From assembly GCF_025753795.1 (NCBI RefSeq), contig NZ_JAOWPS010000001.1, positions 372,001-436,000 on the forward strand: DNA of 64,000 nucleotides. Direction: 5' to 3'. The DNA comes from Mesorhizobium sp. YC-39. Its GTDB lineage: Bacteria; Pseudomonadota; Alphaproteobacteria; Rhizobiales; Rhizobiaceae. The translations under genes were made by a program, and so were the position numbers. Below, piece after piece: positions 8,215 to 54,104 of this stretch. Every line of letters begins with the position of its first letter. Position 1 is the first letter of the stretch. The notes beneath the pieces were generated by a model, which saw nothing but the letters and a program-made list of their open reading frames with translations, made no database searches and was not told the DNA's origin.

Positions 8215-8967
8215 CTACCTAGGTCTATCCAGAATAGCCCTGAGGCTAGTTACGGGAGCAGGTGCCGAGCGCAGCAGTTCGGCCATCCTGACCAGGTCTG
8301 CCAGGGATTGCGCGCCCATCCTTCTCATGACTTGAGCACGATAAATCTTAACCGTGGATTCTACCACGCCAATCCTTCCGGCAACCTGCTTGTTCATCAA
8401 TCCTGCCGTCACGAGATCCATCACCTCGCGCTCGCGCTCGCTTAGCGTCTGAAATCGGGTGAAAGTCTCGATCGCCTGCCGATTGCTTTCGAGGCGCATG
8501 CCGTCCAGCTCGATGGCTCTTGTGACGGCATCCAGCATTTCCTGTTCGCGAAACGGCTTTGTCAGAAAGTCGACGGCACCTGCCTTCATGGCTCTCACCG
8601 CCATCGGAACGTCGGCGTGGCCGGTCATGAATATGATTGGAATACGGACGCCGGCTGCGACAAGGCGGGCCTGAAAGTCGAGACCGCTGATGCCGGGCAT
8701 ACGAATGTCCAGCACGAAGCAACTCGCAAGGTCGGGCAATTCCATGTTCAACAGCTCGGTCGGAGACGAGAATGCCTCGCTCTGCAAACCGACGGAGTCC
8801 AGCAAATCAACCAGCCCTTCGCGCATCGAAACATCGTCTTCGACGATGAAGACGAACGCATTTTGGGTAGTCCGGGCATAAATGGGGGCAGCCACCGAAC
8901 GAGCGTATGACTGCGTCGGCCGCAGCAGCAGGCCTTCATATTTTCGGGTTATCAGATCACTTGTCAT
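8215..8967 (-). CDS. FixJ-family response regulator (receiver + LuxR-type HTH)
   Basis: Response regulator of 250 residues. The receiver has acidic residues VEDD, phosphoacceptor Asp in CFVLDIRMPG, Thr in FMTGHADVP and Lys in LTKPF. It is joined to a C-terminal LuxR/FixJ helix-turn-helix (LSEREREVMDLVTAGLMNKQ). About 30 extra residues precede the receiver. The gene overlaps the end of the stand-alone receiver gene by 11 nt; GGGGAG sits just upstream of tandem GTG-ATG codons and I take the ATG. It is the last gene of the cassette that starts at 12443, so phosphoryl transfer from that kinase is likely (inference). Confidence 0.88.
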   Translation of the reverse strand: MTSDLITRKYEGLLLRPTQSYARSVAAPIYARTTQNAFVFIVEDDVSMREGLVDLLDSVGLQSEAFSSPTELLNMELPDLASCFVLDIRMPGISGLDFQARLVAAGVRIPIIFMTGHADVPMAVRAMKAGAVDFLTKPFREQEMLDAVTRAIELDGMRLESNRQAIETFTRFQTLSEREREVMDLVTAGLMNKQVAGRIGVVESTVKIYRAQVMRRMGAQSLADLVRMAELLRSAPAPVTSLRAILDRPR

Positions 8968-9358
8968 CACTACTCCCCTCTGGTGAGGCCAAAACGGCCA
9001 GGGCGACCGCCGCTAGCAATGCTGAAGCATCGAAGGGCTTTCGAAAGAAACCATGATGACTTTCAGCCGCCGCGCGCCTTTGGTCTGCGGCTTCATGGCG
9101 CGCCGTAATGAAAATGACGGGCAAGTCGGGACGCACTTTTCGCGCTCGCCGGCGCAGCTCGAAGCCGTCGACAACTGGCATGCCGATATCGGCAATCAGG
9201 CAATCTATCTTACGCAACACGTCGCGTTCGAGGAGAGACTGAGGGGATGAGAACAAACAAACCGAGTGCCCCGCCGACTCTAGGAGATCCTCGATCGACT
9301 CGAGGACCCGAACGTCGTCATCGACAACCGCGATCGTTGATTTCCGTGCTGCTTTCAT
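8957..9358 (-). CDS. Stand-alone response regulator receiver protein
   Basis: 133 residues made of a CheY-like receiver only: VVDDDVRVL acidic pocket, phosphoacceptor Asp in LIADIGMP, Thr in FITARHE and Lys in FFRKPFD. No output domain. Its ATG overlaps the stop of the preceding FixJ-like gene (ATGA at 9355-9358), and its own end overlaps the next FixJ-like gene. A lone receiver between two DNA-binding regulators could act as a phosphate sink, a relay step or a modulator of the kinase; the sequence does not decide which. Confidence 0.85.
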   Translation of the reverse strand: MKAARKSTIAVVDDDVRVLESIEDLLESAGHSVCLFSSPQSLLERDVLRKIDCLIADIGMPVVDGFELRRRARKVRPDLPVIFITARHEAADQRRAAAESHHGFFRKPFDASALLAAVALAVLASPEGSSDDK

Positions 9359-10002
9359 TTCGAAGATGTTCCCGCGCGCCGAGAATGGGTTACTGGTACC
9401 TGCAGTCTTTCGGCGATCCTCACGAGATCGGCCAGCGATGCAGCCTGCATCTTGTGCATGATCTTGCTGCGGTGGATTTGCAGCGTCACCTCACTGATCC
9501 CAAGTTCCGCAGCCGCCTGCTTGTTGAGAAGACCGCTGATGACCAGTGGCAGAACCTGGCGTTCGCGAGAGGTCAGGGAGGAAAGGCGCCGCTTTAGCGT
9601 CACAAGCTCGGCCCGCTCCAGGCGGGCGCCGCAATCCCGATCGATCGCCGTGTGGATGGATTTCATCAACTCGGTTTCGCTGAACGGTTTGGTGAGGAAA
9701 TCCACGGCGCCGCGCTGGATGGCGCGTACAGAAGATGGAATGTCACCGTGTCCGGTGATGAAGATGATAGGCGGATGTTGCTCGTGGTCGGTCTGTTTCT
9801 GGAATTCCAACCCGTTGATATCAGGGAGTTCGACATCGAGGATCAGGCAACCGGGCAAGTCCGGCCGGGGAAAAGCCAGATAGTCGGCAATCGAGTTGAA
9901 GGCGACGGAAGCCAGGCCTCTTGCCGCCAGAAGCTCGCACAGCGCCTCGCATATGCGCTGGTCGTCATCAACGATGAAAACGAGGCAGTCGTCCTGGGTC
10001 AT
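9355..10002 (-). CDS. FixJ-family response regulator (receiver + LuxR-type HTH)
   Basis: 215 residues from the ATG at 10002, chosen because it overlaps the kinase stop (ATGA at 9999-10002); a longer frame to 10074 would run into the kinase's ATPase domain. Receiver: FIVDDDQRI, Asp in LILDVELPD, Thr in FITGHGDIP, Lys in LTKPFSE. Output: LuxR-type helix-turn-helix with LTSRERQVLPLVISGLLNKQ. Encoded directly after the four-PAS kinase, it is the most probable cognate partner of that kinase. It resembles the regulators at 8215-8967 and 33522-34190 closely enough that they look like paralogues. Confidence 0.9.
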   Translation of the reverse strand: MTQDDCLVFIVDDDQRICEALCELLAARGLASVAFNSIADYLAFPRPDLPGCLILDVELPDINGLEFQKQTDHEQHPPIIFITGHGDIPSSVRAIQRGAVDFLTKPFSETELMKSIHTAIDRDCGARLERAELVTLKRRLSSLTSRERQVLPLVISGLLNKQAAAELGISEVTLQIHRSKIMHKMQAASLADLVRIAERLQVPVTHSRRAGTSSK

Positions 10003-12443
10003 GCCGCGTCGCCCGATTGGATCGGCAACGTAAACGAGAACACCGTTCCCCTTGGCTCGATGTTCTCTGCCCAAAGCCGGCCGTCGTGTGATTCCAGTAT
10101 CGAGCGGCAGATTGCCAGGCCCATACCCATTCCCCCCGCCTTCGTCGTGAAGAACGGTTCGAAAATTCGTTCTGGTTCGGCAATTCCGTCGCCGTTGTCG
10201 CTGACGTCGACCAGGATCGCATTCTCTCCACAGCGGCGTGATCCAAACTTGAGCGATTTCGACACGTCGATTGTCGACTTCATTGCGTCGATCCCGTTGC
10301 GGACCAGATTAACCAGCACCTGCTGCATCTGTACGCGGTCCGCGAGCACCGGCGGCAGGGCCGCATCGAGATCCGTCTCAACGAAGATGCCCTGCGAGAT
10401 TATTTCATCGAACATCAGCTGACGCACCTCGCTGATCACCTCGTTGAGATTGATTGAAGTTCTGGACGAAGCGGTCTGTTTGAAGAGTGCTCGTATCCGG
10501 CTGACGACCTCGGCCGCTGCCATGGAATCGCGTACCATTCGCTCCGCGGTAATGCGTGCCCGCTGCAGGTTTGGAGGATCCGCCGACAGCCAGCGTTGGC
10601 AGGCATGACTGTTGGTGATGACAGCCGCCAAGGGCTGATTGACCTCATGCGCGATCGAGGCCGACAGCTCGGCGAGGCTCGCAAGCTGCGAAGCGCGCGA
10701 AAGCTTGTCCTGCGTCGCACGAACGATGTCATGGGCTCTCATTTCGTCATCGATGTCGATGATGACGCCATACCATTTCACGATGCGGCCATCGTCGTCC
10801 CGTAGCGGCTGGGCGCGATTATCAACCCAGCGATAGATGCCATCGCCCCGGCGGTTGCGGTACCGCATGGCGAAAGGCTCCCCGGTCTTCAATGAGTGGA
10901 TCAGGCTTCTCTTCACAGCCTCCAAGTCATCGGGATGCATAAGGCGTCCAAGTGCCCCGTCCAGCTTGGTACCCTCCTTGGGCTCACTGTGGTCGATCTT
11001 GCGGCCATAGTAGGTTTCCAACTGCTTGTTGATGTAGGCTGGTTCACCCTCGGGAGTGACGGACCAGACGAGTGTCGGTATGGTGTCGACAAGCTGCTGG
11101 AGTTCATACTGTCTGGCTCGCAGCGCCTCCTCGGCCCGCTTGCGATCGTCGATATCGGTGTTACTCCCGAACCAATGGATCACAATGCCGGAGGCATCGA
11201 GCACTGGTTCGCCTTGGAAAAGGAACCAGCGGTATTGGCCATCGAAGCGGCGCAGCCGTGCCTCGATCTCGCCCGGCGCACCCGCTGCCAGGAGAGATCG
11301 CCAGTATTCGACAAGCCGGTCCCGATCGTCCGAATGTATGGCGGCAGTCCAACCCCAGTCGCTTGCCTGCTCCTGAGACAGGCCCGTGTATTCGAGCCAT
11401 CTCCGGTTCAGGAATTCGGTGGATCCGTCTGGGTGGGCGGACCAGACCAGTGTCGGAAGAGCGTCGATCAGCCGCTGGAGCTGAAGCTCTTTGGCCTCCA
11501 AAGCCTGTTCCACTCTCTTGAAGTCATCGATGTCGGTGAACAGGCCGTACCAGCGTATGACTTTGCCATCCTCGTCGAAAATTGGTTCGACGCGCGCATG
11601 GAACCAGCGGTATACGCCATCGTGTCGCCGCATGCGGTACGCGCGGTCCATTGGCTCGCCGGTTTGAATGCAACGCTGTCGCGCTGCCGCAACGCTGTCG
11701 CGCTCGTCGGGATGAATGATGCTGAGAAAGCCCAGCCCACTCAGTTCGAAGAGGTCCAGTCCAAAATAATCCCTTTGCGTCTTGTTGGCGTAGTCTTGAT
11801 TGCCTTCGGAGTCAGCGGTTGCGATCATCCCCGGGATGTTGTCGAGTATTGACCGGACGCTGTGCTCGCTCGCGCGCAGGGCTTCCTCCTGGACCTTCTG
11901 GTCATCGATATCGAGCAAGATTCCATACCATCCGTTGAACTTGCCGTTCCGATCGTGCCTGGGGCAGGCCGCGACACGGAACCAGCGATAGGTGCCATCG
12001 TGGCGACGAAGCCGGTACGCGCCATGAAATTCCTGGCCATTCTCCAGGCATTGCGACATGAGGCCTGCAGTTCGGTCGAAGTCCTCCGGATGAATAACCT
12101 GCCGACAATGGAGATTACCGGTGTCGCCGGTGCCGAGATAATCCCGAAGGCTCGTGTTCACCTTGGCCAACCGGCCTTCCGTGTCGACGATCCATGCCAG
12201 TCCGGGAATGCGCTCCAGGAATTCACGCGTGTCATACACAGCGCGGTCCAACGCAGCCTGCCTTTGCGACTCTTGAATGAGAAAGCCGGTCACGATCGCA
12301 ATTGCGGCAAGGAGGGCCAAACGCATGTAAGTATGGCGCACGGTGATCTCTTCCTGTTCGCCGGACAGCCAGAACACCAACAAGCCGACGCCGGAAATGG
12401 CTATGGCCAAGCCATATGTCCGCAGCGGCGACATTGCTTTCAT
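9999..12443 (-). CDS. Membrane histidine kinase with four tandem PAS domains
   Basis: 814-residue sensor kinase. Two hydrophobic segments near the N-terminus (about 8-26 and 40-58) form a hairpin anchor. Four consecutive PAS_3/PAC units follow, each ending in a WYG- or WFG-containing strand and a DIDD/DIDDQ linker (for example YGILLDIDDQK, YGLFTDIDDFK, FGSNTDIDDRK, YGVIIDIDDEM). The kinase core has H-box SIAHEVNQPLAAVITNSHA, N-box LVNLVRNGIDAM, G1 DVSDNGDGI and FFTTKAGGMGMGLAICRS. The ATG at 12443 has GGGAG 9 nt upstream; the open frame extends to 12506 without a better start. No haem-binding residues can be assigned with confidence, so the signal is unknown. First gene of a four-gene coupled operon. 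Confidence 0.9.
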   Translation of the reverse strand: MKAMSPLRTYGLAIAISGVGLLVFWLSGEQEEITVRHTYMRLALLAAIAIVTGFLIQESQRQAALDRAVYDTREFLERIPGLAWIVDTEGRLAKVNTSLRDYLGTGDTGNLHCRQVIHPEDFDRTAGLMSQCLENGQEFHGAYRLRRHDGTYRWFRVAACPRHDRNGKFNGWYGILLDIDDQKVQEEALRASEHSVRSILDNIPGMIATADSEGNQDYANKTQRDYFGLDLFELSGLGFLSIIHPDERDSVAAARQRCIQTGEPMDRAYRMRRHDGVYRWFHARVEPIFDEDGKVIRWYGLFTDIDDFKRVEQALEAKELQLQRLIDALPTLVWSAHPDGSTEFLNRRWLEYTGLSQEQASDWGWTAAIHSDDRDRLVEYWRSLLAAGAPGEIEARLRRFDGQYRWFLFQGEPVLDASGIVIHWFGSNTDIDDRKRAEEALRARQYELQQLVDTIPTLVWSVTPEGEPAYINKQLETYYGRKIDHSEPKEGTKLDGALGRLMHPDDLEAVKRSLIHSLKTGEPFAMRYRNRRGDGIYRWVDNRAQPLRDDDGRIVKWYGVIIDIDDEMRAHDIVRATQDKLSRASQLASLAELSASIAHEVNQPLAAVITNSHACQRWLSADPPNLQRARITAERMVRDSMAAAEVVSRIRALFKQTASSRTSINLNEVISEVRQLMFDEIISQGIFVETDLDAALPPVLADRVQMQQVLVNLVRNGIDAMKSTIDVSKSLKFGSRRCGENAILVDVSDNGDGIAEPERIFEPFFTTKAGGMGMGLAICRSILESHDGRLWAENIEPRGTVFSFTLPIQSGDAA

Positions 12444-12983
12444 TTTCGGATACTCCCGACGCGGCTCCTGCTGCCGCGCGAGCGACCTCAGGGCCTCGCC
12501 CCACAAGAAGGCAACATGATCGGTCCCCCGAGATGTCGGACTTCCACCGCACTATATCAGAATAGAATGCCGCCCAGGCATAATGGAAAGACGTGATGGA
12601 CAGCCGGTCGCCCGCCGCTGCCGTTGCACCGTGAACTGGGCGGACAGCTGCGGGTGACGCTCAAATATGTGTATTCCCGGGGCACCGGGCCGACTGACAC
12701 CGGTCTGCCGAGCATCCCCCCGGGACCGACAGGCCCGGACCGGACACGCAGCGTCCATCGCCAGGTACACGCTGCAACCTCAGGACTGATAACCGCAAGG
12801 AAGGGCCAGTGGCCGCAAAGCAGACAAAGCCGTTCCACAAGCCAGCCGGTATGCTGCTGCCGAACGTGATCGAAGGCGGCCCAAGGTCACGATGTGACCG
12901 TCTGCGACGGACGGCTTCCAAGGTCGAAGCCGCCGATTTTCTGCGGTAGCGGTTGCCGGTGAAATAAGACGAGGAGACTACAA
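12444..12983. other. Divergent intergenic region
   Basis: 540 nt between the kinase (minus) and a small secreted protein (plus), so it should carry promoters for both. A 46-codon frame (GTG 12809 to TAG 12949) has AAGGAAGG upstream, but its product resembles nothing and I do not call it a gene. No repeat or RNA structure stood out. Confidence 0.35.
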
Positions 12984-13280
12984 ATGGACTGCAATCGAGC
13001 GCTGCTGCAGATTTCATCGATTGGCGCCGGCGTTTTCATGTCGATCTGTCTCACGGGCACCGTAGCGACCGCCACAGCCAAGGACCAGAACACCGCGGCA
13101 ACCGTCGTTGCCGACCAGGTGCGAAGCCAAGGCTTCCGTTGCAAAAATCCGACTTCTGCGGAGCGCATTGAGGCCGAGTCCGCCCCCAATCAGACCGTCT
13201 ACCTGCTCAAGTGCGAGGGCATGACCTACAGGGTGCTCTTGATTCCAGATCAGGCAGCTGAAGTGGCCAAAGTTGACTGA
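12984..13280 (+). CDS. Small exported protein of unknown function
   Basis: 98 residues. The N-terminus has a signal-peptide-like hydrophobic run (about residues 7-31, ending ATATA). The mature part has two cysteines (FRCKNPT and LLKCEGM) about 28 residues apart that could pair, and ends in a YRVLLIPDQAAEV strand. GAGGAGA lies about 8 nt upstream of the ATG. It is encoded ahead of the HtrA protease gene at 13543 in the same direction, with a 262-nt gap, so co-regulation is possible but unproven. I do not recognise the family. Confidence 0.6.
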   Translation: MDCNRALLQISSIGAGVFMSICLTGTVATATAKDQNTAATVVADQVRSQGFRCKNPTSAERIEAESAPNQTVYLLKCEGMTYRVLLIPDQAAEVAKVD

Positions 13281-13314
13281 CGCCCAATGCGGGCCTCAGC
13301 GAGGAGACACTTCC

Positions 13315-13416
13315 ATGCGAAATGGTCTTTCTCGAAAGAAACTGCGCCGTCCCGCAAGTAACTGCCGCAGCCTTGCAAACAAAACACAATCCGGAAGCGG
13401 GCCAGTACCAGCTTAA
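13315..13416 (+). CDS. Possible 33-residue basic small protein
   Basis: Open frame of 34 codons starting at ATG 13315 with GAGGAG 9 nt upstream (13301-13306). The product is Arg/Lys/Asn-rich with one cysteine and no recognisable domain. It sits between the small exported protein and the HtrA gene. The only support is the ribosome site and position; it could equally be non-coding leader sequence. Confidence 0.22.
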   Translation: MRNGLSRKKLRRPASNCRSLANKTQSGSGPVPA

Positions 13417-13542
13417 GTAAATCGGTTCGATCGGGAGTCCATCAGCGAGGCTAGGGCATCCGATCGGCCATACGCCGGATAGACGGTTCCGCATGCGGAA
13501 CGCGCCACGGCGCCAGGACCAAGCCTCGCACGGATCGCGACC

Positions 13543-15069
13543 ATGTCAACTTTCAACATCCTCCGCAGGCACCGCGCCGTGCTGCTTTTCTCTGCCGTCC
13601 TCGTAGCGCCGCTCGCTGCTGGGGTCGCTCTGAACGCGAGTCTGGCCGATACGCAAACGGGGCCTTCACCGGTTGGCTCCACCATTTCCGCTTCGGCCAC
13701 CTCCTATGCTCCAATCGTTGCGGCCGACAAGCCGGCGGTGGTGACGATCACGTCGATCGTGAAAACTTCATCGGCGCCCGATGATCAAATCCAGCCCTCG
13801 GACAGCGGTCTGTCGTCCGATGAGCGGTTGCCTCAATTCTTCGGCAATCGGGGAATCCCGGCACCCAAGGCACCACCGCAAGGAGCAACGCAACTGGCAG
13901 AGGCCCTCGGTTCCGGCTTCATCATCAGCTCAGACGGCACCATCGTCACCAACAACCACGTCATCGACGGAGCTTCGGATATCATGGTGACGCTTGACGA
14001 TGGAACCGAGCTGCAGGCGACCCTTGTCGGCCACGACGCAAAGTCGGACCTTGCGGTCCTGAAAGTAAAGGCTGGAAAGCCCCTTCCCACTATCGCCTGG
14101 GGTAATTCCGACGGCCTCAGGGCAGGCGACCCGATTCTGGCGATTGGCAATCCGTTCGGTATCGGAACGACAGTCACTGCGGGAATCGTGTCCGCCCGCG
14201 GGCGCGACCTCAACAGTGGTCCCTACGACGATTTCCTTCAGATCGACGCGCCGATCAACCACGGCAATTCGGGTGGGCCTCTTGTCGACACCCGCGGCGC
14301 TGTCGTGGGTATCAACACCGCGATCTACTCGCCCAATGGCGGCAGCGTCGGCGTCGGATTTGCGATCCCCTCCAATGAGGCCAAACAGATCGTCGCCAAG
14401 CTGGTGAAGAACGGTTCGATCGAGCATGGGCTGCTCGGCATCGAGATGCAGCCGATTACAGCGGATCTCGCCAACGCCCTCGGTCTGCCGACGCCTGAAG
14501 GTGCTTTGGTCGCTCATGTCGGCGATGGATCGCCCGCCGCTCATGCGGGCATCGAGACCGGCGACGTCATCACCGGATTTGCCGGTCAAACCATCAAGGA
14601 GCCCAAGACCCTGTCTCGAGCCGTGGCGGATCTCTCGCCGGGAAAAAGGGAGACGCTGTCCGTTTGGCGCGATGGGAAGACAGTTGCGTTGTCGGTCGTC
14701 GTCGGCGGCAATGACGACAGCGTCAAACAGGTGGCCGCAATCAACTCTTCCCAGCCGATGCATTCCAGTTTTCCAACACTCGGTCTGGCGCTTGGTGACC
14801 TCGATCTAACCGTCCGCCAGGCCTTGAATGTGCCTTCGCAGGTGCGTGGTGCCGTGGTCGAGGGTGTCGATCCGGACCAGCCGGCAGCCACCTCCGGCAT
14901 TGAATTGGGCGACATCATCATCTCGGTCAATCGCGTGCCGGTACAGACTGCTAAGGAGACGAGCCAGGCCATTAGCGCCGCAACAAAATCCAGCAAGAAG
15001 TTGGTGCTGCTGCTGATCAAGCGTGGCGAACAGCAGACCTTCATCGCTGTGCCATACGGCAATGGTTAA
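13543..15069 (+). CDS. degP: DegP/HtrA-family periplasmic serine protease with two PDZ domains
   Basis: 508-residue Do-like protease for periplasmic protein quality control. A basic N-terminus plus hydrophobic stretch (residues 10-35) gives an export signal. The trypsin-like domain holds the full catalytic triad: His139 (TNNHVID), Asp169 (KSDLAVLKV) and Ser243 (NHGNSGGPLV). Two PDZ domains follow (about 290-380, with LLGIEMQPI, and 415-505). Length is normal for the family. The ATG at 13543 has no strong Shine-Dalgarno upstream. The gene's final codons are part of a 24-bp tandem duplication. An envelope-stress role fits the surrounding pumps and sensors. Confidence 0.93.
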   Translation: MSTFNILRRHRAVLLFSAVLVAPLAAGVALNASLADTQTGPSPVGSTISASATSYAPIVAADKPAVVTITSIVKTSSAPDDQIQPSDSGLSSDERLPQFFGNRGIPAPKAPPQGATQLAEALGSGFIISSDGTIVTNNHVIDGASDIMVTLDDGTELQATLVGHDAKSDLAVLKVKAGKPLPTIAWGNSDGLRAGDPILAIGNPFGIGTTVTAGIVSARGRDLNSGPYDDFLQIDAPINHGNSGGPLVDTRGAVVGINTAIYSPNGGSVGVGFAIPSNEAKQIVAKLVKNGSIEHGLLGIEMQPITADLANALGLPTPEGALVAHVGDGSPAAHAGIETGDVITGFAGQTIKEPKTLSRAVADLSPGKRETLSVWRDGKTVALSVVVGGNDDSVKQVAAINSSQPMHSSFPTLGLALGDLDLTVRQALNVPSQVRGAVVEGVDPDQPAATSGIELGDIIISVNRVPVQTAKETSQAISAATKSSKKLVLLLIKRGEQQTFIAVPYGNG

Positions 15070-15100
15070 CATCAGACATACGGCAATGGTTGACATCAGA
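15053..15100 (+). repeat. 24-bp tandem duplication over the HtrA stop codon
   Basis: Two adjacent 24-bp copies (15053-15076 and 15077-15100) differ at one base. The first contains the last sense codons and the TAA stop of the protease; the second repeats the same codons with TGA in place of TAA. Looks like a recent slippage duplication. Confidence 0.85.
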
Positions 15101-15352
15101 TATGCCAAAACCGCCGGGACGGGACCGTCAGATTGACGCGAAAACGATTTCAGTCTCCTGGAGGGACGAAATTGCAGGTCGCCGAGCTGGCGCCCCCCTT
15201 GGCAAGAGCGATGAAGCGGAAGCGGAACGGGCACGGAAAACGCGCCCGCCAATTGCGCCAGAAACCAGATCTCCGACCAAGGGCCAGGGGAGGTGAGAGC
15301 CAGCACAAAGTCTCGATCGAAGAGCGCTGGCTTCACAGGGGACGTCCAGGGT

Positions 15353-16411
15353 CTATCCGAGGCTCCGCTGGTAAGCACTCGGCGTCAGGCCGGTCGCCTT
15401 GCGAAAAGCGGCCGTGAATGAGCTGGTTTCGCTATATCCGACAGTCAATCCGATGTCCGTCACCGAATGAGCGCGCGTCGCAAGGAGACCTTTGGCATGC
15501 TCGATTCGACGGCTGGTAAGGTACCGATGCGGAGGCATCCCAAAAGACAGCTTGAAGGCGCGGCAAAAATAGCATGGGCTCAACCTGGCAAGCTGCGCGA
15601 GAGTGGCGAGCGGTACCGGTTCGCCCAAATGCGCTTCGATATGCGCCGTGACTATCCGCTGCTGCCAAGCCGCAAGCCCGCCTCGAAGCTGGGGTTCGGC
15701 TCTCGGCGTCCCCTCGTGGAAATGGATCAGCTCATGAGCTAGGACGATGCCCAGTGCTTCCAGGTAGCACCGATTCTCCGGGGTTGGAGTTTCGAGCGAC
15801 CTCATCAGTTTGAGGGCCGTGCCCAAAAGCGTTGCGTCCTCAAAGAAGAGCTTCGCCGCGAACGTCACATCTGTCATGCCAGCGTTGAACGGAACTTGCA
15901 GCTTGGCAGGATCAAGGTAGACAAACATGAGACGCGCAAACGTCCGCGGCGCATGCCATTCAAGATATTCGCGACCGGCGGGCACCAAGGTAAGCCGGCG
16001 ACCAAAATCCCGCAGTTTCGATCGGGGTAAACCTTCGACGAAGGTATCACCGTCTCGCCGCGTGCCCTGCTCGTAGACCACCAGCAAGTGCATGGGCGCG
16101 CGAAACCGGAATTCGAATTTGTCATGACCGGCGGCTTGGACCACCTCGGCAACGATCCCATCCGAAATCGCCGTGCGACTGCTCACAGCGTCGGCTGAAG
16201 ATATCTCGACACGGTAATCGGCCCCTTCGGCGCTCCGGCGCCGGAACTGCGCATGCGCCACGGAGTTGGTACGTTGTGCCTTTCCGCCGTTGAACGGAGC
16301 ACGCCAATCCGCCGACAGGAGTGGTCCCATTTGCTCCGGTCGCCGAGCATTGGCTGCGAAGGCAGCAATCGCGAGTGTATCGATGTCACTGGAGGCAGGA
16401 TTCATCAACAT
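15353..16411 (-). CDS. AraC-family transcriptional regulator
   Basis: About 352 residues. The C-terminal 100 residues form the double helix-turn-helix of the AraC/XylS family (LATLAQLARLSPCYFCRAFK and the signature near VTDIGLTVGYSETSSFTAAF, ending GLTPSAYQRS). The N-terminal 240 residues are a probable effector-binding domain with no metal-site motif I can identify. Several start codons are in frame (GTG 16423, ATG 16411, ATG 16405); I choose 16411 with AGGA 13 nt upstream, which is only a moderate ribosome site. It is not beside an obvious metabolic target. Confidence 0.85.
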   Translation of the reverse strand: MLMNPASSDIDTLAIAAFAANARRPEQMGPLLSADWRAPFNGGKAQRTNSVAHAQFRRRSAEGADYRVEISSADAVSSRTAISDGIVAEVVQAAGHDKFEFRFRAPMHLLVVYEQGTRRDGDTFVEGLPRSKLRDFGRRLTLVPAGREYLEWHAPRTFARLMFVYLDPAKLQVPFNAGMTDVTFAAKLFFEDATLLGTALKLMRSLETPTPENRCYLEALGIVLAHELIHFHEGTPRAEPQLRGGLAAWQQRIVTAHIEAHLGEPVPLATLAQLARLSPCYFCRAFKLSFGMPPHRYLTSRRIEHAKGLLATRAHSVTDIGLTVGYSETSSFTAAFRKATGLTPSAYQRSLG

Positions 16412-16859
16412 GGCTTGGCGCACATCCTTCGGGTTATCCCATCTGATGTCAGCGTAAGGCGCCAGCGATGATTTATCCCATTCTACATCCGTCGGCTGTT
16501 ATAGAGTATTGGTTTGAACTACTCATACTTTGGTTTGTGATTGGATGTCGCGATCGATAGTAATGGTATTTGTGCCGCGCGGGCCAGTTGGCCGGTTCTT
16601 CAATTGCGGCCGTTCCCAGGTGATTGGTCGATTTGGCGCTACTGGACGTCACGTCTTGATGATCTTGAATGAGGTTCCCCTGCATGGCTTGGGCTTTTTG
16701 ACGTTCCGCGCGAAATCCGCAAGCTGGATGCAAAGCCGGCAAGAACGACGAAGCACCGGCGGCAAAAAGCACTAGGTTGTAGATCGGCGCTGCGATCGCT
16801 GGTTTCGATCCCATTTCCGTCCACCATCGTGGCAGTGCTCCACTCGTGCCAGATTGATC

Positions 16860-16977
16860 CTGCGGGCCTCTCCCCTCCCTCGCCCGCTGATCGATTGTGA
16901 AGGCGCTCTTCCCCCCGGGAGCGTTTCTCACCGCTCGAGTTCTTGGGCCGATGACATGCTGTCATCGGCCCATTTTT
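16860..16977 (+). ncRNA. Candidate small RNA with C-rich anti-Shine-Dalgarno segments
   Basis: The 3' end is set by the perfect terminator at 16945-16977; the 5' end is a guess. Two C-rich stretches could pair with ribosome-binding sites: CCTCTCCCCTCCCTCGCCC (16867-16885), and the loop of a small hairpin, CGCTC (16904-16908) / GAGCG (16919-16923), whose loop is TTCCCCCCGG. Hairpins with CU-rich loops plus an intrinsic terminator are typical of alphaproteobacterial trans-acting small RNAs. No convincing promoter was located. Confidence 0.35.
16945..16977 (+). terminator. Strong intrinsic terminator without an upstream gene
   Basis: Perfect 12-bp stem GGGCCGATGACA (16945-16956) / TGTCATCGGCCC (16960-16971), 3-nt loop, followed by A and five T residues (16973-16977). 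The T-run is on the plus strand only, so the transcript it ends runs left to right; no coding gene lies upstream on that strand. Confidence 0.85.
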
Positions 16978-17255
16978 CCTCCTGCCTCCCAAGCGAACCG
17001 ATTCACGGTCGCCGAGCGTTGCCGGCGTCGGCACCTTTGGCGATGCGACTTGCTTGCGGCGCGATGCATCGCGCGATTTCGCAGACAAGGATCTGACGTC
17101 GCAACTGGCGCTCGACCGCCTCATCGCGACGTCCTGGACAGGAAGGAATGGACAGTGCTGTCGGCGTTCGCCAAGCTTTGTCACAGGTGGGGCCTACTCA
17201 AGTCGACGGCGCGGTCAAGGCAGCCTCAACCGCGCGTCGCGTGAGGCCTTTGTCA

Positions 17256-17522
17256 TCAAAACCCGTTGATGCCCGAAAACATGCCGGAATCGGCCGAGGG
17301 ATACTCGTCCCCGTTCTTATCGGGCTGCGATACGGGCTTCTTGGCCGATCTGGTTGTCGGTGCTTGAACGTGCCTCGGCAACAATGAGTGGTTGCTGTTC
17401 GTTTTTCGTTCGACATGATCGAACTTCGCCCGCGTGTGTCCATGAGGCGAACTTGCTGCAGCGGCCCAAGCGGTCGACAGGAGGACTGCCGCGACTGCAG
17501 CCGCGATTGAGAGAGAGCTCAT
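17256..17522 (-). CDS. Small secreted protein with C-terminal GINGF motif
   Basis: 88-residue protein. The ATG at 17522 is chosen for its ribosome site (AGAGGTG) and because it begins a clear signal peptide (MSSLSIAAAVAAVLLSTAWA). The mature part is basic and His/Ser-rich, then ends in DSGMFSGINGF at the C-terminus. This matches the ending of the small protein at 3153-3389 (GWFDGINSF). The open frame extends 40 residues further upstream without support. Function unknown; export to periplasm or outside is inferred from the signal peptide. Confidence 0.62.
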   Translation of the reverse strand: MSSLSIAAAVAAVLLSTAWAAAASSPHGHTRAKFDHVERKTNSNHSLLPRHVQAPTTRSAKKPVSQPDKNGDEYPSADSGMFSGINGF

Positions 17523-17823
17523 GTGTTTCACCTCTTGTTCTGTGGCGCAGCCGGCGAAACTCGAATTGGCGACAGAATTGTCGCTCATGCCGGCGATGTT
17601 TAAATAGGTTCGAAACACGTCTCGATGCACTATACGAAACACATCCGGCGTGGCTGTAATTGGTTATCTTCATAGGATTGGAGTATAATTCGGCCAACAA
17701 GAAGTGAGGCGGAGCATAGACCAGGGCGGTCCTCGTCGTCGATTGGTCCGAGGCCCTCGCATGGCGGCCTCGCCTCTGGCCGCGAAGGATCCTGGTCATG
17801 TTCATACACAACGCGGCGCGCGG
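17523..17823. other. Intergenic region, no gene recognised
   Basis: 301 nt between two minus-strand genes; it is AT-richer at 17600-17700, where the promoter of the small secreted protein is expected. Nothing else recognised. Confidence 0.35.
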
Positions 17824-18729
17824 TCAGTCGAAGATCGGCTTTCCGATCGCGTTTGAAAAGATGTTGCCGAGATAGAAGTGGAGCTGTGCGCGCACGCCGA
17901 TGTCGCGGCCCGAACTCTCGTTGATCGGAATGATCGCCTCCACCCCGAGTTGAGCGTACTCGCCCACCCAGATGACGCCAGGATTGATTGTGCCCGTGGT
18001 CTCTCCAGCCGACGGCCCGTCCAGCGGCGTCTGCATCGCGAATTCCACCAGCGGTACCAAACCCTCCGCGAAGCGGTGAGCATTCCCCTTGCCGGCGGAA
18101 TACGAATTGGTCAGCAGGCTGTATTCCAGGGCGAAGCCCCATTGCAGGATGTTTGGGTTGTCGACCCTGGTGGTGCCGGTCACGGTGTTGGATTCGGTTG
18201 GCAGTGCGACTCCGAGGGTCGCGGTGACATTGACCGGGCGCAGCCACGCCATCGAGTCCGACAGATCGCCGAAGCCCTTGCCCACGTATATGGTTGGCGT
18301 CAGCGTGGAGAACGACTTGGCCCCGATCTCGGACGATCCGGTGCCGCCCAGCGCCAGCGTGCCGCCTGCCGAGAGCACGAACTCATGCTCGGCACTGGAA
18401 TAGAGTTCATACTGCGTGCCGAGCATGAGATTGTCGAAGCCCGCCCGTGTGCTCCCCTGATCGATCATGCGGTAGTTCGCGGTGAACGAGACCGACCAAT
18501 CCGGGGTGATGAGCTTGCTGTAGGAGAAAGGAAAGTCGATCTCGCGCGAGGCGGTGTCAGGCAACTGCGTCAATTGGGGAAAATTGACGAAGTCGGCCGG
18601 GGTGGGAACGACGGTCGCCAGGGTAGAGGGAAAGAAACGATCCCCGACGTAGGACGCTGACGCTTCCGAACTTGCAACGAGAGATAATAAGAAGCAGGGC
18701 ACCGTCAGGTGCCAGGCTCGGTTAGCCAT
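17824..18729 (-). CDS. Outer-membrane beta-barrel protein, phenol-degradation MetA-like
   Basis: 301 residues with a signal peptide (residues 1-25, ending SEASA). The rest alternates polar and hydrophobic residues with many aromatic strand ends (SVSFTANYRMI, YELYSSAEHEFVLSAGGTL, YLGNIF), the pattern of an outer-membrane barrel. Length and the repeated glycine-rich strand pairs fit the MetA/transporter-like barrels that Rhizobiales encode in many copies; this assignment is by look only. AGGAG lies upstream of the ATG at 18729. No transport partner is adjacent, so a substrate cannot be named. Confidence 0.7.
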   Translation of the reverse strand: MANRAWHLTVPCFLLSLVASSEASASYVGDRFFPSTLATVVPTPADFVNFPQLTQLPDTASREIDFPFSYSKLITPDWSVSFTANYRMIDQGSTRAGFDNLMLGTQYELYSSAEHEFVLSAGGTLALGGTGSSEIGAKSFSTLTPTIYVGKGFGDLSDSMAWLRPVNVTATLGVALPTESNTVTGTTRVDNPNILQWGFALEYSLLTNSYSAGKGNAHRFAEGLVPLVEFAMQTPLDGPSAGETTGTINPGVIWVGEYAQLGVEAIIPINESSGRDIGVRAQLHFYLGNIFSNAIGKPIFD

Positions 18730-18792
18730 CCCACTCTCCTACCGAAAAATTCACCCTTAAGGCCGGGCGCCCACAATCGAAGGCGACGGTGA

Positions 18793-19362
18793 TCAGGATT
18801 CGGCCTCGATCACCTCGAAGCGTCCGTGCCGAGCGCTTCGTCGTCCATGGGTTTCGCCTGCATCCACTGGCTGCAGGAATTGCGGACGATCATCCCTTTG
18901 GCCCCTCGCGCATCGGACCGTCCGCAAGGGGCGCGGATGAGACAGGGGCGGTTCAGTCTGGGCATCGTCTTTCTCTACAAACCAAAGCAAGGCGATCAAC
19001 GCATCCGAATAAATGGCGAGGCAAATCAAAAACGATCTGGCGCTGGCGTCCGTGGTCCAGCCCGCGAGCACGGCAAAAAGACAGGGCGGTGCCATCACGG
19101 CGAAGAGTTCGAACCAGCGCGACTTACCGAGACACCCGCGCCATGACAACGCATCGAAGATCGGCGAGTCGAGCGGGCCTGTGCCGGCGGCAACTGCGGA
19201 GCCAAGCACCGAACCATGCCGACCGTAACCCATGCGGAAGGAGCGCCCGAGCCGGACAGCGCCCATTGCGATGCCTTGCTCTGTGAGGGCCAGGCCGGCC
19301 CGCAGCACGCCCCAACCTCCGGCGGAGGACTTGTAGGGCCGCATCGACTTCCTGGACGCCAT
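18793..19362 (-). pseudogene. Possible chimeric remnant: molybdo-oxidoreductase N-terminus joined to a membrane segment
   Basis: Open frame of 189 residues with GAGGA before the ATG at 19362. The first 25-30 residues (SMRPYKSSAGGWGVLRAGL) look like the start of YdeP/FdhF-type molybdopterin oxidoreductases, which begin with a Y-x4-GGWG motif, but the expected iron-sulfur cysteines do not follow. Residues around 95-145 instead form two hydrophobic helices (FELFAVMAPPCLFAVLAGW and SFLICLAIYSDALIALLWF). The last 50 residues are Arg-rich and look out of frame. I read it as a scar or chimera; it could also be an unrelated small membrane protein. Confidence 0.4.
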
Positions 19363-19687
19363 GCATTGAAATCCTCGTGGTCGAGCGTCGAGTGTTGCGC
19401 TCAAGCAAAGAAAATATCTTTCGCAAACGCCGCTCTGGTTCGAATTTCGCCCGTTGCGTTCCTTGGCTTCTTCAATTGGCTTTCATGCAAAGCCCACGTG
19501 TCGAGCGCTGATTGCGCGCGTGGCTCTAGCAGCGTTCGCCATTCTTGCCAGGAATATCCCTCCGATACCTACCCGATAGGGCGCCATAAGTAACCGTTTC
19601 ACCAATTAGCTTACGCAGCCATACCAATGGATGATTCAAGTCGATGGCAAAACCTATGCATGCTTCCAGAAGGAGAAGGAGCAACGA
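19363..19687. other. Divergent intergenic region
   Basis: 325 nt between the possible remnant (minus) and a small Cys-rich frame (plus). No recognisable gene, RNA or repeat. Confidence 0.35.
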
Positions 19688-19945
19688 ATGAAATGCCTAA
19701 GCTGCGTGCATGAGGTGAAAATACCTCACCAGTACTACTTTTGCTCTCTGGAATGTTTCGACGAGACAACCCGCAACACCAAATGGAGGATGTTGAGCGA
19801 TGGACTTCCGCCCACTGGTTTTCCTGCTGGTGGCCAGCCCCGCACTGGCTCAGGATCATACCTCCCACGTCCCGGCTGGGCCTCCCGAGGGCAACTACGG
19901 CCAGGGGCACGAGAAGTGGCACGACATCTACATGGGGATGCATAA
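19688..19945 (+). CDS. Possible small zinc-finger-like protein
   Basis: Up to 85 residues from ATG 19688, which has GGAGAAGGAG 9 nt upstream. The first 40 residues carry C-x2-C-x12-C-x3-C (CLSCVHEVKI... FCSLECFDE), compatible with a zinc-binding site. The second half overlaps the next gene in another frame and is probably shadow sequence, so either the protein is short and degenerate or its end evolved by overprinting. No named family recognised. Confidence 0.3.
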   Translation: MKCLSCVHEVKIPHQYYFCSLECFDETTRNTKWRMLSDGLPPTGFPAGGQPRTGSGSYLPRPGWASRGQLRPGAREVARHLHGDA

Positions 19946-20162
19946 CACGCTGGGTGGCTCATGCTGCCACGGCGGGGACTGTCGGCCAACGGTTGCCAAG
20001 TTCGAGGGTGGAAAGTGGTGGGGTAAACTCAACGGAGTATGGACGCCGATCGAGCCGTCCAGAAGAGTGCCTGAACACCCCTACTCATGGAACGAAACAG
20101 CCCACATTTGCGCGGCTGGGAAAAACGTCTACTGCTTCATACCCCCCGACAACGGGACCTGA
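19800..20162 (+). CDS. Secreted Cys/His-rich protein (SCCHGGDC motif)
   Basis: 120 residues with a short signal peptide (MDFRPLVFLLVASPALA). The mature protein contains GGSCCHGGDCRPTVAKF, a WNGVWTPI-like strand (KLNGVWTPIEP) and two later cysteines (HICAAGKNVYCF). Four or five cysteines in an exported protein suggest disulphides or metal binding. Conserved hypothetical proteins with an S-C-C-x3-D-C-R motif are common in rhizobia, but none has a function known to me. GGAGGATG precedes the ATG at 19800. Confidence 0.7.
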   Translation: MDFRPLVFLLVASPALAQDHTSHVPAGPPEGNYGQGHEKWHDIYMGMHNTLGGSCCHGGDCRPTVAKFEGGKWWGKLNGVWTPIEPSRRVPEHPYSWNETAHICAAGKNVYCFIPPDNGT

Positions 20163-20414
20163 ACCTCCCCCGCTGAGCCGCGAACCAAGCTCATCGTACT
20201 GTCTCGCGTCGGCGGACCGGACGAGCCGCGCAGGTCTGCCCCCGTACCGCGCGCAGCGACTTGACGCTGGGCAATCTATGAGAACATGACCGGGGCAATC
20301 ACGACCAATCACCGCCTGGAGCCTGTTCCATCCCGATGGAATCGGGACGGGCTCTATCTCAAGTCTGACCAAGATCCTATCCTGAAACCGGTTCCCCCTT
20401 GTCGGGGTCGTGGT

Positions 20415-23400
20415 CTAGCCGGCCGGGTGCGTCGTTTCGGAGAAGAGTTCGCCCTGCTCGGGTTCCACAGGCGGTGTTTTTGCGCCTCGCAAGCCACCCA
20501 GGAATTTGCCGAGCCGCTCAAGATACAGGTAGACCACCGGCGTCGTGTAGAGCGTGAGAACTTGCGACAGCACCAAGCCACCCACGATCGTGTAGCCGAG
20601 CGGCTGGCGGATTTCCGATCCGGCGCCGGTGCCCAGCATCAACGGCACGCCGCCCAGCATCGCCGCCATGGTGGTCATCAGGATCGGCCTGAAACGTATG
20701 GTGCAAGCCCGGTAGATCGACTCCTGCGGACTGAGACCTTCGTTCCTCTCGACCTGGAGCGCAAAGTCGACAAGCATGATGCCGTTCTTCTTGACGATGC
20801 CGATCAGCAGGATAACGCCGATCAGCGCTATCACGCTGAAGTCCATATGGACCGCCATCAGCAACAACAAGGCGCCGATAGCGGCTGAAGGCAGCGTCGA
20901 CAGAATTGTAATCGGATGGATCAGGCTCTCGTAGAGCACTCCGAGGATGATGTAGATCACCACCAGGGACACTCCGATCAGGATTGGTGTGCCTGACAAC
21001 GCCGACTGAAAGGCTTGCGCATTGCCCTGGAGGCTGGTTGCAAGCGAAGCAGGCTTTCCGGCATCGCGTTCGAACTGCTGGATAGCGGCGACCGCATTTC
21101 CGAGCGCCGCCCCGGGTTTTAGATTGAAGGAGATCGTGACCGCCGGAAACATGCCCTGATGATTGATCACGATCGGCGCGGCCTTCGTCACGCTGGTCAC
21201 CAGCGCGCTTAACGGCACCTGCTGCCCTGTCGAAGAATTCAGATAAATATCCTTGAGCGCTTCGGGGCCGTACTGGAATTCCGGGCTGACCTCGAGAACG
21301 ACGTGATACTGGTTGAGCTGGGTAAACATCGTGGAGACGATGCGCTGGCCGAAGGCATCGTCGAGCGTGTTGTCGATCGTCGATGGAAGGATACCGAAAC
21401 TCGACGCGACTTCGCGATTGACGGTCACGTCGAGCAGTGGTCCGGCATTCTCCTGATCGGTGGCCACGTCAACGATTCCTGGTATCCCTCTAAGCTTGTC
21501 GAGGAAGATCGGCGCCCAATGGTTGAGCTCGTTGGAATCGGCATCGGCCAGAGTATATTGATACTGCGTCTTCGAAACCCGACCGCCGACAGTGATGTCC
21601 TGCGCCGCTTGCATGTAAAGCGCTATGCCTTGGGTCTTGGCGAGTTGGGATGACAGCCGGCTGATCACCTGATCGGCGCTGACGTCACGCTGGTTGTTGG
21701 GCTTCAAGGCAATGTACATCGTCCCTCGATTGAGTGTGCTCCCGCCAGTTGCTCCTATCGAGGCTCCGACCGAAGCTACCGCCGGATCCTTCAGCACAAC
21801 GTTGGTTATCGCCTGCTGGCGCTCGGCCATGGCCGGGAACGAGATATCCTGATCGGCCTCTGTGACGCCGATAATCAGGCCGGTGTCTTGTTGCGGGAAA
21901 AAGCCCTTCGGGATGACAAGGTAGAGATAGCCGGTGACGGCAATCGTTCCGAGCATGACGAGCAGCGTAATGAAAGTGTGCCGCAGGACGATCTTCAGGC
22001 CCCGTTCATACAATCCAAGCAGCGCGTCGAAGCCGCGTTCGCAAATATTGTAGAGCCGCCCGTGCCTGACGTTGGCCTCGTTCTTGAGCAGACGCGCACA
22101 CATCATTGGCGTCAGCGTGAGCGAGATCACCAGCGACAGGATCAGTGAGACGCTCACCGTCACGGCGAATTCCTGGAAGAGTTCGCCGACATAACCTCCC
22201 ATCAGAAATAGTGGAATGAATACGGCGATGAGTGACAGCGTAATCGAAATGATGGTGAAGCCGATCTCGCTCGAGCCCTTCAGCGCAGCCTCCATCGGGG
22301 TAAGGCCTTCTTCGACGTGGCGGACGATGTTCTCGATCACGACGACTGCATCGTCGACGACGAAGCCGACCGCGATCGACAAGGCCATGAGCGACAGATT
22401 GTCGAGGCTGTAACCAAGCGCATAGAGCACGGCAAAGGTGCCGACGAGCGAAAGGGGCACGGTTACTGCGGGAATGACTGTGGCCCAGAAATTGCGCAGG
22501 AACAGGAATATCACCATCACCACCAGAGCGACGGTCAGCATCAACGTAAATTGCACGTCCGCGACCGAGGCACGGATGGTTTGTGTGCGGTCCGAAACGA
22601 CCGATACCTTGATGCCGGGCGGGATCGAGGCTTGCAACTGGGGCAACAAGGCCTGAATGCGGCCGACCGTCTCGATCACATTGGCACCGGGCAGGCGCCG
22701 GATGGCCAGCAAGATAGCGGGCTTCTTGTCGAACCAGGCGGCTACAAAGTGGTTCTCAGGCCCGTCGATCGCGGTGCCGATGTCGCGGATGCGCACAGGC
22801 GAGCCATTGCGATAGGCGACGACAATATCATTGTAAGGGTCAGGTTTGAGCAGCTGATCGTTGGTGTTGAGCGTGAAGGTTTGACGCGGGCTATTGAGCG
22901 TGCCCTTCGCAATATCAACATTGGCCTCGCCGAGCACGTTGCGAACATCTTCAAGTCCAATGCCGCGGGCCGCGGCGGCTTGCGGATTGATCTGCACACG
23001 GATCGCCGGCTTCTGCTGGCCGCCAATCCCGACAAGACCGACGCCGGAGATTTGCGAGATCTTCGGCAGCAGGATGTTTTCCGCATAGGCATCGACCGTC
23101 GTCAGCGGCAGGGTATCGGATGTCAGTGCGAGCACCAGGATCGGCGTATCCGCCGGATTAACCTTGCGGATGGTCGGCGGATAGGGGATGCCCAGCGGCA
23201 GATCGGGGCTGGCGGCATTGATCGCCGACAGCACGTCAACCGCCGCACTGTCGACGCTCCGGCTCAGGTCGAACTGAACGGTGAGCTGTGTGCTGCCAAG
23301 CGCGCTGGTCGAAGTCAGCTGGGTAACGCCGGGGAGCTGGCTTATCTGCTGCTCAAGCGGGGTGGCTACCGACGACGCCATGGTTTCGGGATCGGCGCCG

Positions 23401-52391: not shown

Positions 52392-54104
52392 ATGGCTAGA
52401 ATCACCCGCGCCGCTTATGCCCAGATGTATGGCCCGACAGTCGGCGACAAGGTGCGGCTTGCCGACACCGAATTGTTCATCGAGGTCGAAAAGGATTTCA
52501 CCTTGCATGGCGAGGAGGTGAAATTCGGTGGCGGCAAGGTGATCCGTGACGGCATGGGCCAGAGCCAGGTATCGCGCGCGCAAGGCGCGGTCGACACTGT
52601 CATCACCAACGCGCTGGTTGTCGATGCCGTGACCGGCATCGTCAAGGCCGACATCGGCCTCAAGGACGGCCGCATCGCGGCAATAGGCAAGGCCGGCAAT
52701 CCGGATACGCAATCGGGCGTCACCATCATCATCGGCCCCGGCACGGAGATCATCGCCGGCGAGGGCAAGATCCTGACTGCCGGCGGCTTCGACGCGCATA
52801 TCCATTTCATCTGCCCGCAGCAGATCGAGGAAGCGCTGATGAGCGGCATCACCACCATGCTCGGCGGCGGCACAGGCCCGGCGCATGGCACGCTGGCAAC
52901 CACCTGCACGCCGGGGCCGTGGCACATGGCGCGCATGATCCAGTCCTTCGACGCCTTCCCGATGAATATCGGCCTGTCGGGCAAGGGCAACGCCTCGCTG
53001 CCGGCGGCACTTGAGGAGATGGTGCTGGCCGGCGCCTGCTCGCTGAAGCTGCACGAGGACTGGGGCACGACGCCGGCGGCCATCGACTGCTGCCTGTCGG
53101 TTGCCGACGATTACGACGTGCAGGTGATGATCCACACCGACACGCTGAACGAATCCGGCTTTGTCGAAAACACGGTCGCGGCGATCAAGGGCCGCACCAT
53201 CCATGCCTTCCACACCGAAGGCGCCGGCGGCGGCCATGCGCCGGACATCATCAAGGTCTGCGGCCTGCCCAACGTCATCCCGTCCTCGACCAATCCGACG
53301 CGTCCTTATACGGTCAATACGCTGGCCGAGCATCTCGACATGCTGATGGTCTGCCACCATCTGTCGCCGTCGATCCCCGAAGACATTGCCTTTGCCGAAA
53401 GCCGCATCCGCAAGGAGACCATCGCCGCCGAGGACATACTGCACGACATCGGCGCCTTCTCGATCATCTCGTCGGACAGCCAGGCCATGGGCCGCGTCGG
53501 CGAAGTGGCGATCCGCTGCTGGCAGACCGCCGACAAGATGAAGCGCCAGCGCGGTTCGCTGCCGCAGGAGACCGGCAACAACGACAATTTCCGCGTCCGC
53601 CGCTACATCGCCAAATACACGATCAACCCGGCCATCGCGCATGGCCTGTCGAAGGAGATCGGCTCGGTGGCGGTGGGAAAACGCGCCGACCTCGTGCTGT
53701 GGAACCCGGCCTTTTTCGGTGTAAAACCTGAGATGGTGCTGGTCGGTGGCTCGATCGCCGCCGCCCCCATGGGCGATCCCAACGCCTCGATCCCGACGCC
53801 GCAGCCGATGCACTACCGGCCGATGTTCGGCGCCTATGGCAAGGCGCTGACCAACTCGTCGGTGACTTTCGTCTCGAAAGCTGCGCTCGATGACGGCCTG
53901 CAAGCAAGGCTCGGCGTCGACAAGGCCATGGTCGCGGTCGAAAACACCCGCGGCGGCATCGGCAAGCATTCGATGGTGCTCAACGACGCCACCCCTTATG
54001 TCGAGGTCGATCCCGAAACCTACGAGGTGCGAGCCGACGGCGAATTGCTGACCTGCGAGCCGGCAACGGTGCTGCCGATGGCGCAAAGGTATTTTTTGTT
54101 TTGA
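52392..54104 (+). CDS. ureC: Urease alpha (catalytic) subunit UreC
   Basis: 570 residues, the usual length; the open frame runs upstream to 52179 but ATG 52392 begins the conserved [19 protein letters not shown]. Nickel and catalytic residues are all in place: His136 and His138 (FDAHIHFI), carbamylated Lys219 (SLKLHEDWG), His248 (MIHTDTLNE), His274 ([10 protein letters not shown]), His322 (VCHHLSP) and Asp362 (SSDSQAMGR). Together with UreA and UreB it forms the enzyme that hydrolyses urea. The gene is separated from ureB by 1.3 kb. Confidence 0.99.

Follow-up and report, generated by a model that had tools for sequence, protein, structure and literature searches.

Whether an intrinsic terminator that follows no plus-strand gene can mark the end of a regulatory RNA is the question raised by a 64,000-nucleotide stretch of the Mesorhizobium sp. 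YC-39 genome, referred to here as the window. The original prediction placed an orphan small RNA (sRNA) candidate at 16860-16977 of this stretch. The reading favored here, with moderate confidence, is that the locus holds the gene of a trans-acting sRNA of about 127 nt, which would act through C-rich loops and perhaps be controlled by a neighboring gene product.

The terminator occupies 16944-16977 of the plus strand. A perfect 13-bp stem, TGGGCCGATGACA-TGC-TGTCATCGGCCCA (16944-16972), encloses a loop of 3 nt and is followed directly by five T residues at 16973-16977; the textbook terminator first described keeps its short loop, its T-run and its perfect stem, the latter being 13 rather than 12 bp long. 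Only two perfect stems of at least 10 bp (loop 3-8 nt) occur in the window, and a T-run follows this one alone. Stems of at least 12 bp with at least four T in five bases appeared in none of 20 dinucleotide shuffles of the window. On the minus strand the T-run is missing, the sequence there being AGAAC. A looser terminator scan of 12000-22000 returned 12 sites against 8.9 expected, indicating that terminators in general are not enriched and that this one is distinguished by its stem. As originally stated, no plus-strand gene leads into it: the last clear one is a DegP/HtrA-like gene at 13543-15069, and a minus-strand gene for an AraC-type regulator intervenes.

The predicted sRNA body covers 16851-16977 of the plus strand, where 16851 is the edge of a covariance-model match and not a mapped start. 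It is predicted to form three hairpins, the terminator being the last. The 128 nt up to the end of the T-run (16850-16977) fold at -59.8 kcal/mol (z -6.2), with none of 200 shuffles equally stable, and the shorter segment 16860-16977 reaches a z-score of -5.5, stabler than all 200 of its shuffles. Hairpin 1 (16852-16896) is built from stems 16852-16859/16889-16896 and 16863-16867/16882-16886. The C-rich stretch at 16867-16885, earlier taken for a free single strand, is largely the 14-nt loop of this hairpin (CTCTCCCCTCCCTC, 16868-16881), with its ends sitting in the stem. Hairpin 2 (16897-16931) carries the second C-rich loop that had been proposed, in which CCCCCC (16911-16916) is unpaired but the flanking TT and GG pair together.

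Homologues over most of the query were found by DNA search in eight of 146 Mesorhizobium genomes: G000 (the source genome), G018, G028, G072, G073, G097, G100 and G159. The match in a ninth genome, G142, spans just 31 bases (E 8e-4), and this genome was left out of the count. A covariance search with this fold in related genomes, suggested alongside the original prediction, recovers the same 8 of 146 with R1, a model built from the eight copies. The score of the element itself, 146.6 bits, is high by construction, as the model contains this element together with its seven homologues. Larger R1 scans use stricter filters that can lose weak matches. Among 394 genomes sampled from the family they returned the source genome only, among 397 sampled from the order they added two weak matches (26-27 bits) to it, and 72,556 plasmid records gave nothing. 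The loci of the two weak matches fit no Rfam family at E up to 0.5, and these matches are taken for chance. Restriction to eight of the 146 genomes of the genus is counted against the favored explanation.

Comparison of these copies shows a constrained element with three predicted hairpins and an intrinsic terminator, lacking a conserved start-to-stop reading frame. Identity of G072 and G159, the most distant copies, to the six near ones, taken over six of the twelve pairs (all twelve give nearly the same values), is 0.60-0.87 per 20-nt bin across 16841-16980 and 0.21-0.41 in the eleven bins from 16981 to 17200. Conservation is high up to the T-run and then collapses. It is also low (0.09-0.43) in the thirteen bins at 16441-16700, between the AraC-type gene and a conserved block upstream of the element, leaving the sRNA body in a conserved island.

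The seven homologues are predicted to share the three-hairpin layout, with z-scores of -2.9 to -6.2 and 0 to 2 of 200 shuffles as stable. Pairing in hairpin 2 is weaker in G018, where the helix is re-registered and the centroid keeps five pairs, a weakness counted against the favored explanation. Standard pairs fill 96.4% of pair cells, a share that falls to 31-55% if the partner is shifted by 1-3 columns, and all cells are paired across the 11 terminator pairs counted. Covariation is slight, consisting of one pair with a double change (G-C to A-U, in the terminator), a count matched in 57 of 500 shuffles, and this is held against the favored explanation; 33 of 500 shuffles reached the percentage paired, and 20 of 500 the covariation score. 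The case for structure therefore depends on kept pairing and folding energies more than on covariation. The T-run is 4-5 long across the eight homologues (TTTTT in G072), and CCTCCC in the loop of hairpin 1 and CCCCC in that of hairpin 2 are kept in all eight, CCTCCC by itself not being rare (21 occurrences on both strands of the window). No start-codon reading frame within the element is common to the eight copies. A coding body was rejected, the longest internal frame (TTG at +3) closing early in G018, G100 and G072.

Judged from sequence comparison, the element very likely represents a functional sRNA. The layout of a trans-acting regulatory RNA, as first proposed, is recognizable in its intergenic position, structure, own terminator and C/U-rich loop motifs, whereas action at ribosome-binding sites is something we infer.

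At Rfam gathering thresholds, the element has no match. A low-threshold scan (E up to 5, in 791 bases around the element, one same-clan match of unnamed family being left out) gave four scores on the element that fall short of family membership: mmgR/suhB (RF00519) at 23.4 bits (E 0.02, threshold 41), ar14/NfeR1 (RF02344) at 17.2 bits against 58.8, SorY (RF02651) at 16.4 against 111 bits, and ar7 (RF02342) at 16.1 against 60 bits. A fifth match, to a miRNA family, lies off the element. For ar15/AbcR (RF02345), there is no match in the window at gathering threshold and none listed at the locus at E up to 5. No description of this locus was found in the literature by title or start of abstract, which does not prove its absence from print.

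The source genome does carry five ar15/AbcR copies above the Rfam threshold elsewhere (L016-L020), as well as a 63-bit mmgR. The element could thus be a strongly diverged copy of ar15/AbcR or mmgR, that is, one more paralogue of the anti-Shine-Dalgarno (anti-SD) sRNAs of this genome, an alternative regarded as unlikely. The mmgR score of 23.4 bits is consistent with it, as is one ar15 copy, L020, which matches R1 over its full length at 21 bits with the CCUCCC loop, the UUCUUGG linker and the CCAUUUUU end aligned; the favored reading draws on the L020 match as well. However, that mmgR score lies under the Rfam threshold, ar15 is not among the matches listed at the locus, and weak mmgR matches mean little because the model, at E up to 10, matches 14 of 14 control genomes. 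Furthermore, R1 matches neither the mmgR copy nor any of the remaining four ar15 copies at E up to 5. Separately, locus L021, which has a sub-threshold mmgR-like match, matches R1 weakly at two places on its minus strand, 854-959 (23.1 bits) and 1508-1640 (17.2 bits). The second coincides with the mmgR-like match and has an 8-T tail, marking another possible sRNA of this kind.

The element nevertheless resembles several characterized sRNAs in form. Passages of PMC7143759 describe AbcR1/AbcR2 (ar15) with three stem-loops, a CU-rich anti-SD motif in an unpaired loop, an end terminator and a neighboring regulator gene, all of which recur here. The neighbor there is of LysR type, whereas here it is of AraC type, and the second motif here, CCCCCC, lies in a hairpin loop. 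NfeR1 (ar14), as portrayed in parts of the same source, likewise bears anti-SD motifs in hairpin loops, and sections of PMC3927594 describe such loop-borne motifs in the form of CCUCCUCCC loops. In contrast, the loops here are CCCCUCCC and CCCCCC (CUCCUCCC in G072 alone), and the final hairpin, with its 3-nt loop, is a terminator. With MmgR (suhB), for which passages of PMC7143759 mention a predicted anti-SD loop and report no direct target, the alignment reaches 23.4 bits and takes in a hairpin, a linker and a terminator of the GGGCCG type, hairpin 1 being extra here. The best reading is that the element works like the AbcR/NfeR1/MmgR group, yet by test it is a member of none of these families.

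Upstream of the element lies a conserved block at 16701-16800, with no strand assigned, whose identity of 0.68-0.78 is nearly that of the sRNA. It contains GCAA at 16719, 16730 and 16739, and this spacing of 11 and 9 bases is identical in all eight copies, with a fourth GCAA next in six. The first GCAA lies at -131 to -133 (-120 in G072), a place kept even where the AraC-type gene is separated. In G072 and G159 the block stays beside the sRNA and away from that gene. Repeats on one helix face would suit an AraC-family protein, and the block is possibly an operator. GCAA is not rare in the flanks of G072 (5) and G159 (2). The pattern GCAA-N7-GCAA-N5-GCAA has two exact matches in the genome, its own site and one other, against one in the control; with a single further match, no regulon shows.

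The same block bears on a second alternative, rated improbable, in which the terminator ends a longer plus-strand mRNA with a small ORF in the upstream block, the structured RNA being its 3' UTR or a processed piece. Conservation of the block at about the level of the sRNA would fit such a transcript, and so would the single frame that is open across it in all eight copies and has an ATG start in G073, G028, G097 and G072. In G000 and G018, however, no ATG, GTG or TTG precedes the conserved part in this frame, and G100 and G159 lack an ATG close before it. The ORF ends differ among copies, and the G028 translation has no Pfam match.

Between the block and the sRNA, a further conserved segment (16821-16850, plus strand) holds most of an inverted repeat, ATCgTGGCA / TGCCAGAT, that reaches 16854. 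Its cells are 96.8% paired, and its one double change is equalled by 48 of 500 shuffles. The repeat may form a further hairpin at the 5' side or serve as a site for a protein. Its overlap with the outer pairs of hairpin 1 would put the two in competition. A promoter scan recognized no sigma-70-like promoter near the element or in 16821-16850, which weighs against the favored explanation. A pattern for the proximal segment had no match in the source genome, but the genome's own site departs from this pattern, which makes the result uninformative. An origin as a mobile or repeated element was considered and rejected: an upstream 17-mer gives one exact copy in its genome, and allowing up to two mismatches yields 15 matches against 7 for a control. 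At 17039-17082 the upstream arm recurs in inverted orientation and with a partial match, a 16-bp palindrome lying alongside. This second arm is found downstream of the sRNA in five of the eight loci and is therefore not a defining boundary.

The term orphan, originally applied to the candidate, holds in that no plus-strand gene leads in, but it is misleading, as two genes accompany the element in all eight genomes. One is the AraC-type regulator gene (15353-16423, minus strand), with a Pfam HTH_18 match of 80.1 bits (cut-off 33.6). The other, convergent with the sRNA (17256-17522, minus strand), encodes an 88-aa protein of no known family whose start looks, by eye, like a signal peptide. Searches at E 1e-30 for the AraC-type gene and at E 1e-3 for the small gene returned the same 8 of 146 genomes as the sRNA; these eight have all three, and the other 138 have none of them. 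Because the genes are linked to one another, this common distribution counts as a single observation and not as several independent ones.

The AraC-type gene adjoins the sRNA in six loci. In G072 and G159, response-regulator genes separate the two, and the stretches examined there (6.2 and 16 kb) showed no counterpart of the window's DegP, outer-membrane-like and RND genes. The minimal common set is the AraC-type gene, the sRNA and the small gene. Named records in which the sRNA has an adjoining AraC-type gene are those of Mesorhizobium helmanticense, M. sangaii, M. sophorae, M. escarrei (L050, where the stretch examined includes half of the sRNA), Mesorhizobium sp. Root102 and the Rhizobiales isolate AFS083231, which are among the eight genomes already counted; the remaining 29 of the 35 loci in this AraC-type search are distant AraC-domain matches of 28-43% identity.

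The element might instead act in cis on the convergent small gene, which co-occurs in all eight genomes, or on the divergent AraC-type gene, serving as a leader, an attenuator or an antisense element. This is very improbable, given that the T-run stands on the plus strand only, that G018 keeps the sRNA although one internal stop breaks its small gene, and that conservation is absent from the 220 nt that follow the terminator.

Other features of the neighborhood were also observed. The response regulators that intervene in G072 and G159 are related to those at 8215-12506 of the window (minus strand), where a PAS-domain sensor kinase lies with FixJ-like response regulators. The stretch that directly follows the small gene's stop codon, 17194-17255, is conserved (0.64-0.70) and can form a minus-strand hairpin, with a sub-threshold miRNA match at 17194-17247; it may be a 3' UTR element. 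Elsewhere in the window, 52542-52833 (minus strand) matches Rfam 5_ureB_sRNA (RF02514) at 104.8 bits. This family is antisense to ureB, and the match may just reflect likeness of the urease gene itself.

For the favored trans-acting sRNA, a mechanism can be proposed by analogy. Once transcribed, the RNA would expose unpaired CCUCCC in hairpin 1 and CCCCC in hairpin 2, which could pair with the G-rich ribosome-binding sites of several mRNAs. This pairing, probably with Hfq, would lower translation of the targets, as in AbcR and NfeR1, whose loop-borne anti-SD motifs cover ribosome-binding sites according to portions of PMC7143759. Such action through the C-rich loops is considered reasonably probable. 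Pairing of the first loop with 58 crudely defined gene starts of the window averaged -9.0 kcal/mol, while 1000 random 65-mers gave a mean of -8.4 (sd 3.7); such pairing is not enriched at gene starts, and no target is therefore claimed. An outer-membrane-like gene at 17824 was considered and set aside: it pairs at -15.5 kcal/mol in G000 through the motif CUCUCC, which is not general. Hairpin 1 has this motif in G000 and G028 alone, and hairpin 2 has it in G018 and G100; this limited spread speaks against claiming the gene as a target.

Transcription of the sRNA might in turn be controlled by the neighboring AraC-type protein, acting on the conserved block upstream. In Brucella, the regulator VltR is reported in PMC7143759 to activate the neighboring abcR1, which provides a precedent for a regulator-sRNA pair. 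By this analogy, control by the AraC-type protein is plausible but falls somewhat short of probable. A broader proposal, to be treated as tentative and on the whole doubtful, is that the AraC-type regulator, a dedicated anti-SD sRNA and a small exported protein form a compact, patchily distributed module, in which the regulator would activate the sRNA via the phased GCAA operator and the sRNA would constitute its own family, absent from most of the genus. If this is true, a single signal would alter both transcription and translation.

The locus thus probably represents a conserved, functional sRNA gene of a familiar kind, belonging to a small family that Rfam 15 does not cover at its thresholds and set in a fixed, informative neighborhood. 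This probable family would be added to the anti-SD sRNAs of rhizobia. The association of regulator, sRNA and small protein makes control of an sRNA by its neighbor directly testable, and the division between the eight genomes that have the unit and the 138 that lack it offers a natural presence/absence comparison.
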